Positions 1 through 960 of a stretch of 40,409 nucleotides of DNA are shown here, piece by piece. The stretch is taken from contig CANQXE010000021.1 of assembly GCA_947627725.1 (NCBI GenBank), positions 1 through 40,409 of the forward strand, read 5' to 3'. This DNA is from an uncultured Clostridia bacterium (lineage in GTDB: Bacteria; Bacillota; Clostridia; Oscillospirales; Acutalibacteraceae). The translations under genes and the position numbers were made by a program. Numbering within the stretch: the stretch's first letter is position 1; every line of letters begins with the position of its first letter. The notes beneath the pieces are model-generated. The model had not been told where the DNA came from and made no database searches. It saw only the letters and a program-made list of their open reading frames with translations.

Positions 1-77
1 AGACAGACAGACAGACAGACAGACAGACAGACAGACAGACAGACAGACAGACAGACAGACAGACAGACAGACAGACA
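1..77 (+). repeat. (AGAC)19 tetranucleotide tract, phase-variation type
   Basis: Nineteen perfect AGAC units fill positions 1-76, followed by one further A. The window begins inside the tract, so the true copy number may be higher. All three frames through the repeat are open and encode the same Arg-Gln-Thr-Asp cycle, but only one frame enters the glycosyltransferase downstream. The frame starting at 77 reads ATG CTT ATT TGA and stops; the third frame stops after about 13 codons. Each unit gained or lost therefore shifts the frame. This is the architecture of slipped-strand contingency loci such as those of Haemophilus lipooligosaccharide genes (established knowledge). Switching here is inferred. 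Confidence 0.93.
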
Positions 78-960
78 TGCTTATTTGATAATTGCGCACA
101 ATCAGTTCGAGCTGCTTGAAATATTGATAAAAATGCTTGATGACGAGCGAAATGATATTTTTATCCATATTGATGCCAAGGCTAATAAATTTGATTTTGA
201 AAAATTTAAGCGTTTGACACAGCACTCGAATATCTTATTTACTGACAGAATTTCAATTACATGGGGAGATTTTTCACAGGTACAGGCTGAAATGATTTTG
301 CTTAAATCTGCTGTACAGAAAGAAGATAAAAATAATCCATATTCATATTATCATCTTCTTTCAGGTGTCGATTTGCCAATAAAAACGAATGATGAGATAC
401 ATAGATTTTTTGCTGAAAATAAAGGTAAAGAATTTATTCATTTTTCTGAAAACAAACCTTCTCCTGCGTTTGCAAACAGGATTAAGTATTATCATATTTT
501 CAGAAAAAAAAGAAATTTATTTTTTAAAATCCTTTCTCAGATTGCGTTGAAAATTCAGAAGTTAATTGGTATTAACAGACTGAAAAATAGTAATTTAATT
601 GTTCAAAAGGGAACTAATTGGTTCAGTATTACAGGTGATTTTGCAAAATATGTTGTTTCAAAGAGTTATGAAATAGAAAAGTTATTTAATTATTCATATT
701 GTTGTGATGAGGTGTTTTTACAAACTATATTTGTAAATTCTCCTTTTAAAAATAATCTTTTTATGCCTAATTGTAATAATAATCAGCTTGCGTGTGCAAG
801 GCTAATTGATTGGGAAAGGGGAAATCCCTATATTTTTAGAACAGAGGATTTTAGTGAAATTATATCATCAAAAGCTATGTTTGCGAGAAAATTCAGTTTA
901 AATGAAGATGAAGAAATAATATATAAAATAAGAGATTATATAGTTGAAAATTGTGTTTAA
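1..960 (+). CDS. Core-2/I-branching-type glycosyltransferase (GT14-like), 5' partial, AGAC-controlled
   Basis: This is a probable beta-1,6-N-acetylglucosaminyltransferase-type enzyme that adds a sugar to a surface glycan. Family features are an N-terminal strand HAYLIIAHN, the DIFIHID motif, SGVDLPI, GTNWFSITGDF and a CDEVFLQTIF acidic motif, followed by LIDWERGNP. Codons run in frame from position 1 through the AGAC tract into HAYLIIAHN. The TTG at 85 would cut off the first beta strand and is an unlikely start. Homologues begin just before HAYL, so the repeat lies between the unseen start codon and the catalytic domain. Whether the gene is ON depends on sequence left of the window. It is AT-rich like the rest of the cluster. 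Confidence 0.85.
   Translation, partial: RQTDRQTDRQTDRQTDRQTDRQTDRHAYLIIAHNQFELLEILIKMLDDERNDIFIHIDAKANKFDFEKFKRLTQHSNILFTDRISITWGDFSQVQAEMILLKSAVQKEDKNNPYSYYHLLSGVDLPIKTNDEIHRFFAENKGKEFIHFSENKPSPAFANRIKYYHIFRKKRNLFFKILSQIALKIQKLIGINRLKNSNLIVQKGTNWFSITGDFAKYVVSKSYEIEKLFNYSYCCDEVFLQTIFVNSPFKNNLFMPNCNNNQLACARLIDWERGNPYIFRTEDFSEIISSKAMFARKFSLNEDEEIIYKIRDYIVENCV

Follow-up and report, generated by a model that had tools for sequence, protein, structure and literature searches.

A predicted AGAC contingency locus in a Clostridia GT14 glycosyltransferase gene and a promoter-like signature that recurs at AGAC tracts

Phase variation in gut Clostridia has been discussed mainly as DNA inversion. Switching by tetranucleotide repeats is described in its classical form from Haemophilus influenzae, where it includes 5'GACA tracts and where, at hifA/hifB, a TA repeat lies between the -35 and -10 of an expression promoter (PMC2651432). 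At the pil1 locus of Streptococcus gallolyticus, a terminator ahead of surface genes is controlled by the number of repeats in a leader peptide (Danne et al. 2014, PMC3894217). An earlier survey covered SSRs in hsdS and methyltransferase genes (cited in PMC7394358), GAGCA repeats occur in Streptococcus suis modS (PMC8125046), and Staphylococcus aureus icaC carries tetranucleotide repeats (PMC7911514). The original prediction for the locus presented here, that such repeats are few in Firmicutes, is fair, with the amendment that few is not none, as pil1, modS and icaC illustrate.

The locus shares with the H. influenzae contingency loci an in-ORF tract in a surface-sugar gene, the same repeat unit and a hydrophilic repeat peptide. 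It differs from them in its Clostridia host and may differ in the promoter signature at the tract. Repeat-driven switching of DNA modification, in a Firmicute among others, links the wider class of AGAC tracts to the SSR-bearing hsdS and methyltransferase genes and to S. suis modS, from which the class is set apart by the promoter signature, by its many cases in viral contigs and by its PAPS-reductase targets. As at hifA/hifB, repeat and promoter touch, but the AGAC tract follows the -10 and the switch would lie in the reading frame. Searches of the literature, with most subscription journals outside their range, found neither a description of AGAC tracts from Clostridia or from phages of Clostridia nor one tying a promoter to a coding repeat. 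The frame switch itself is a known kind of system and what is new is the recurrent predicted promoter at the tract; the larger finding is that AGAC repeats, both in Clostridia and on many viral contigs, are linked to a promoter signature.

The window, by which we mean the whole stretch of 40,409 nucleotides analysed, is contig C21 of an assembly of 58 contigs (2.46 Mb), all of which was searched for tracts. It opens with (AGAC)19, free of errors over positions 1-76, and the following base also fits the repeat (Table 1). Tandem Repeats Finder reported 19.2 copies with a 100% match, which is far beyond chance. The frame from the first base is open across the tract as far as the stop, a length of 319 codons, and the Pfam Branch profile matches protein residues 27-275 (profile positions 2-230 of 250); the domain begins directly after the repeat peptide, with (TDRQ)n in place of the usual N-terminus. 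Because AGAC encodes T, D, R and Q in each phase, all three frames on the plus strand are open within the tract. The ATG at its end is out of frame and meets a TGA at 86-88, so that phase offers no start. The tract is thus of the kind found in contingency loci, long, perfect and within an ORF, with a unit that is not a multiple of three. These results bear out what had been predicted, namely (AGAC)19 in the coding frame ahead of a GT14-like transferase of a Firmicute, here a member of the Clostridia, with every tract frame open and only one reaching the enzyme. Genes around this locus and the LicD locus described below resemble those of glycosyltransferases, flippases and polymer transferases, and a profile search placed a second GT14 gene among them. 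A 24-bp tandem repeat occupies positions 36016-36177 of the window (6.8 copies, 94% match).

Table 1. Features at the start of the window and the basis on which each was assigned.
Feature	Coordinates	Strand	Basis
AGAC tract, (AGAC)19 plus one base	1..77	+	sequence; Tandem Repeats Finder
GT14 / Core-2-I-branching glycosyltransferase, 5' end cut	1..960	+	PF02485, E 1.8e-28
Out-of-frame ATG, stop after three codons	77..88	+	sequence
Next gene, acyltransferase-like by resemblance	1005..2054	+	ORF; resemblance
Polysialyltransferase-family gene, same cluster as GT14	2108..3202	+	PF07388, E 2.8e-17

AGAC tracts of at least six units were found at four places only in the assembly, the left end of C1, both ends of C47 and the left end of C21. 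Since all of them lie at contig ends, the 19 units in the window are a lower bound set by the assembly, which seems to have been broken in two long AGAC tracts; the break at the repeat that had been suspected from the window alone agrees with this position of all four half-tracts. Contig ends also carry AGAC tracts in the genomes G054, G505 and G763, and in G054, which is of the same genus, a contig of 46,612 bases ends in the same module and tract. The upstream halves read AAAGGAG-8 nt-ATGGACAATCTTGAC(AGAC)n on C1 and AAAGGAG-8 nt-GTGGAAAATCTTGAC(AGAC)n on C47, each with a ribosome site, an ATG/GTG in frame with one repeat phase, and the first repeats. An in-frame start upstream of the repeat is therefore present on both contigs. 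A TTG at the tract was considered as the sole start of the GT loci and set aside, the ATG/GTG having AAAGGAG 8 nt upstream. The downstream halves lead into GT14 in the window and into LicD on C47 (Pfam LicD, E 1.3e-41). The window tract would form the right-hand part of a longer tract that begins on C47 or C1, the simplest contig order being C1-tract-C47-tract-C21, and through this presumed join a start codon would lie upstream of the GT14 gene with one phase reaching the enzyme. Under the same order, and with units numbered from the end of the first GAC, the predicted ON states are 1 mod 3 for GT14 and 2 mod 3 for LicD. On C47, the GT14 gene (L010 3-986, minus strand) has no stop before the tract and enters it in the GTG frame, so one repeat phase could give a GT14-GT14 fusion.

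These observations make it very probable that the window locus is a tetranucleotide ON/OFF contingency locus that acts by frame switching. Slippage would add or remove AGAC units at the GT14 locus, and each gain or loss would shift the frame between the upstream start codon and GT14, with one phase in three ON. The predicted switch in a GT14-like gene is supported by the tract, the frames and the upstream starts, all of which are read from the sequence itself, and from them we infer slippage in this gene. Homologues of the gene were present in 18 of 80 genomes of the genus, and at 19 loci from other genomes (of 20 matches) none had even three AGAC units nearby, an observation that counts against the switch. 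These tract-less relatives mostly begin M-x-KHAY or MHA. The tract therefore seems, from this comparison, to have replaced the start of an ordinary GT14 gene.

In genomes, AGAC tracts were rare when sought in one phase (3 of 295 genomes of the order and 5 of 391 of the class). In viral contigs, a six-unit tract sought in four left phases was found in 87, 43, 16 and 10 stretches, and the full viral set came to 159 tracts, from which 5 with a short left flank and 52 near-duplicates were removed to leave 102 nonredundant tracts. The largest groups among the 159 were PAPS-reductase-like genes (70), C5 DNA methylases (30) and HsdS (8). Among the Pfam families matched by ten selected proteins are PAPS_reduct, DNA_methylase, Methylase_S, N6_Mtase, RVT_1, Acyl_transf_3 and EcoRI_methylase. 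A long flanking ORF (at least 130 codons) lay on the tract strand only at 66 of the 102, on the other strand only at 2, on both at 11 and on neither at 23; at tracts with a long ORF on both sides, the two were in frame in 5 cases and out of frame in 20. Of 16 groups of near-identical loci on viral contigs, 7 showed differences in unit number, always by whole units (in one of the seven the right flanks do not match); among these differences is that between two places on a single contig, with 13.5 and 10.5 units. A further scan of 84,980 species used the pattern GGANAATYTTGACAGACAGACAGAC, which required GGANAATYTTG, and returned nine stretches, from Blautia schinkii, another Blautia, Ruminococcus bromii, Acetivibrio ethanolgignens and five Clostridia/Clostridiales MAGs. 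By resemblance, the genes that host these tracts or lie downstream of them encode surface proteins, an acyltransferase, a glycosyltransferase and an EcoRI-type methylase.

AGAC tracts occur in genes for DNA modification and for surface sugars, and in leader peptides that precede terminators. These settings suggest that repeats switch secreted proteins, surface sugars and the specificity of restriction-modification systems in commensal Clostridia, and DNA-modification genes in phages. A reverse-transcriptase gene (RVT_1) on a viral contig (L216 2167-3204) has an in-frame tract of 24.5 units inside the enzyme. In Ruminococcus bromii 5AMG (L073 6138-7364, minus strand), a gene resembling a methylase has 26.75 units close to its 3' end, and after them come further fragments similar to its C-terminus, perhaps alternative ends.

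Ahead of many AGAC tracts, usually inside a gene, stands a sigma70-type promoter signature, TTGACA, 16-18 bp and NANNNT, which ends about 3-4 nt before the first AGAC. In the window genome it reads TTGACA-17-GACAAT on C1 and TTGACA-17-GAAAAT on C47 (score 11.3), and an unexpanded copy of the module, which lacks a well-spaced -35, lies at 1023-1039 in the start of the next gene of the window. Exact TTGACA was found 29-34 nt upstream of 45 of the 102 nonredundant viral tracts, or 58 when up to one mismatch was allowed; in shuffled flanks the same distance gave a mean of 0.16 and a maximum of 3 (500 runs). No exact TTGACA occurred at 6-28 or 35-55 nt in the 102, and two occurred at 56 nt. When the best -10 at 16-18 bp was taken for each of the 58 tracts, A2 and T6 were present in 90%, against 25% in shuffled spacers, and the mean -10 score was 2.23, against -0.23 (sd 0.32), a value reached by none of 2000 shuffles. 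The spacer was 16 or 17 bp in 52 of the 58, and the gap from -10 to tract was 3-4 nt in 39.

Scored at fixed geometry, with matrices of approximate consensus frequencies, 40 of the 102 viral tracts reached at least 8 (mean 1.2, maximum 6, in 100 shuffles). Between 0 and 3 remained at this level when the anchor was moved by 4-20 nt, and 2 of 93 reached it on the far side of the tract. Control tracts of (CAAT)n reached 8 in 0 of 32 and 2 of 31 cases on the two strands. Grouped by homology, the viral AGAC tracts gave a more uneven picture, with a median score of at least 8 in 9 of 34 clusters. The signature is missing from about half of the viral tracts, 44 of the 102 lacking, at the expected distance, any TTGACA with at most one mismatch; many clusters that lack it have a high GC content or seem in other ways unlike Clostridia phages.

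Among bacterial tracts, 15 of 16 readable ones scored at least 11 and the remaining one 8.9, compared with 0.46% of random flanks reaching 11 and 3.9% reaching 8 (n=19,942); these 16 are not independent, five being HsdS and two the window genome's own GT loci. Ten came from genome scans conditioned only on the last base of the flank, and six from genomes picked because a reversed-pattern control fired there, marking tracts in another phase. L432 and the G763 C20 tract, neither of which has a left flank, and the tract of G503 (L251), found by accident, were left out of this count, and hits from patterns that required GGANAATYTTG or both boxes were not counted as evidence for those boxes. A peptide cause of TTGACA was rejected, as the hexamer is read in different frames, as LT in HsdS and PAPS reductase and as ID in C5 methylases. 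A general property of phage microsatellites was rejected on the basis of the (CAAT)6 control and of other repeats in PAPS-reductase homologues.

A comparison within one family was made with PAPS-reductase homologues from viral contigs, the best 80 being kept of 600 stretches looked at. Nine without the anchor motif were dropped, one of which (L375) carries a tract, leaving 71. Exact TTGACA was present in 7 of the 10 homologues with an AGAC tract and in 1 of the 61 without; two more of the ten have TTGACG or TTGCGA in its place, and the single tract-less case, L360, looks like a decayed tract. With position left free over about 100 nt, a score of at least 11 was reached by 5 of the 10 tract-bearing and 2 of the 61 tract-less homologues (L334, L338). 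Some tract-bearing homologues have their tract closer to the GARKYL motif; in these the TTGACG of VDG codons stands at the same distance and the -10 is TAGAAT or TAAAAT. The boxes thus move with the tract, their reading frame differing and their spacers being specific to the family. At the site after the KEV..AR motif, other phage homologues carry repeats of GA (L323, L345, L383), TA (L325) or poly-G (L378), as if the gene had repeatedly been selected for switching. The best promoter scores at these repeats were 2.8, 3.0 and 4.4 for the three GA, 1.7 for poly-G and 7.3 for TA, in which case the repeat itself supplies the -10. A search for PAPS relatives with one protein as query yielded 2 loci. 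The genome G276 has six PAPS-reductase-like copies (contigs C9, C11, C12), five with similar scores, perhaps carried by a mobile element.

The signature is almost certainly a real feature of AGAC tracts, and that it is an active sigma70-type promoter with its predicted start within the tract seems reasonably probable; the signature, its fixed geometry and its absence from control repeats can be read in the DNA, and from these we infer transcription from the signature and the role it may have. At the GT loci the ribosome site and the ATG/GTG lie inside the spacer between -35 and -10, so a transcript beginning in the tract would lack them, and AGAC contains no start codon. The predicted promoter thus could not express the GT gene from its upstream start, and it is unlikely to express the switching gene itself. 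Our favoured guess is that initiation at the tract would open the first repeats and promote slippage or the birth of AGAC tracts. The embedded promoter would then be a mutator part, with RNA polymerase opening the DNA at the repeat, an idea that we put forward tentatively and with some doubt. If true, it would couple the switching rate to transcription initiation inside the gene, and Clostridia and phages would have evolved promoter-driven contingency loci many times, in DNA-modification, surface-sugar and leader-peptide genes. The recurrent signature opens a direct way to test whether transcription that starts at a contingency repeat determines how fast that repeat mutates. No correlation was seen between promoter score and unit number (rho 0.16, p 0.12; -0.12 in the PAPS set), which weighs against a role in mutability and led us to reject the proposal that longer tracts have better promoters. 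An active AGAC promoter is also argued against by S. gallolyticus, where reporter fusions at the leader repeats found only the upstream promoter active (PMC3894217), although the repeat there is a different one, GCAGA.

An internal promoter might instead transcribe the part of the gene after the tract, or downstream genes of the operon, when the frame is OFF and polarity silences them. The signature does lie in sense with the gene (66 tracts have a long ORF on their own strand alone, against 2 with one on the opposite strand alone), but polarity relief needs no fixed distance to the tract, such as the 3-4 nt gap in 39 of 58, and the lack of a start codon in AGAC, together with a start upstream of the predicted RNA start at the GT loci, makes such expression distinctly unlikely. 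It is unlikely, too, that the signature resembles a promoter in looks only and is the site of another DNA-binding protein or of an enzyme that creates tracts: the tract often starts TTGACA again about 31-32 nt after the first, and many PAPS-reductase -10s (AACGCT, AACCGT) are far from consensus, but the 16-17 bp spacer in 52 of 58 and A2/T6 in 90% follow the usual promoter rules, and the -10 becomes TAGAAT or TAAAAT where the tract sits elsewhere in the gene. Very similar modules on C1 and C47 of the window genome, in G054 (L046) and at L067-L069 might suggest that promoter and tract form one mobile cassette copied between genes. Spacers that differ by family and encode the family's own residues, with TTGACA in different frames, speak against this, and most cases look like evolution in place, making a cassette improbable. 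Codon use or relatedness could in principle have produced the signature by accident, given that PAPS reductases make up 70 of the 159 viral tracts and HsdS five of the 16 bacterial ones, and that the codons of KYLT and LLTF contain TTGACA. This is very improbable in view of exact TTGACA in 15 of 39 homology clusters (13 of 37 after one locus was merged), in different frames, of its presence in 1 of 61 tract-less PAPS homologues, and of the 0-3 matches at shifted anchors and 2 of 93 on the far side of the tract. As a whole explanation, the reading of the window locus as a tetranucleotide contingency locus that belongs to the class of tracts with a promoter signature is likely to be correct.

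In a further set of 14 leader loci (about 11 distinct), the tract lies before a gene, inside a short leader ORF; two of them, L077 and L078, came from a search pattern in which both boxes were obligatory. By eye, the gene after the tract has a start resembling a secretion signal at 13 of the 14. At 12 of the 14 the leader's start codon stands at -23 or -20 relative to the tract, with a stretch like a ribosome site before it. One of the three leader frames stops within 6 nt past the tract in 12 of the 14, and the longest frame ends inside or past a terminator-like hairpin in 13 and at the hairpin edge in L078, the hairpins of L068, L072 and L085 being judged by eye. The near-identical leaders L131, L147 and L160, with 16.25, 20.25 and 14.25 units, now end at +5, +25 and +25. 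These loci fit an attenuator of the type described by Danne et al., with a start before the tract, one short frame and one frame reaching the terminator. They resemble pil1 in that the leader frame would set where the ribosome stops relative to the terminator, and differ from it in the repeat, which in pil1 is GCAGA; they would be new members of a known leader-attenuation mechanism, distinguished by the promoter signature. The GT14 locus of the window has no leader ORF or terminator between tract and gene, the GT14 frame following directly. Five leader RNAs are predicted to fold with the tract as the 5' arm (z -3.7, -4.2, -3.3, -1.0 and -3.2; coding control -0.8). Rfam searches of seven leader loci gave no match that approached a curated score. 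In L065 the only Rfam match was an HDV-F-prausnitzii ribozyme (2714-2787), which lies some 2 kb away from the tract of Blautia schinkii.
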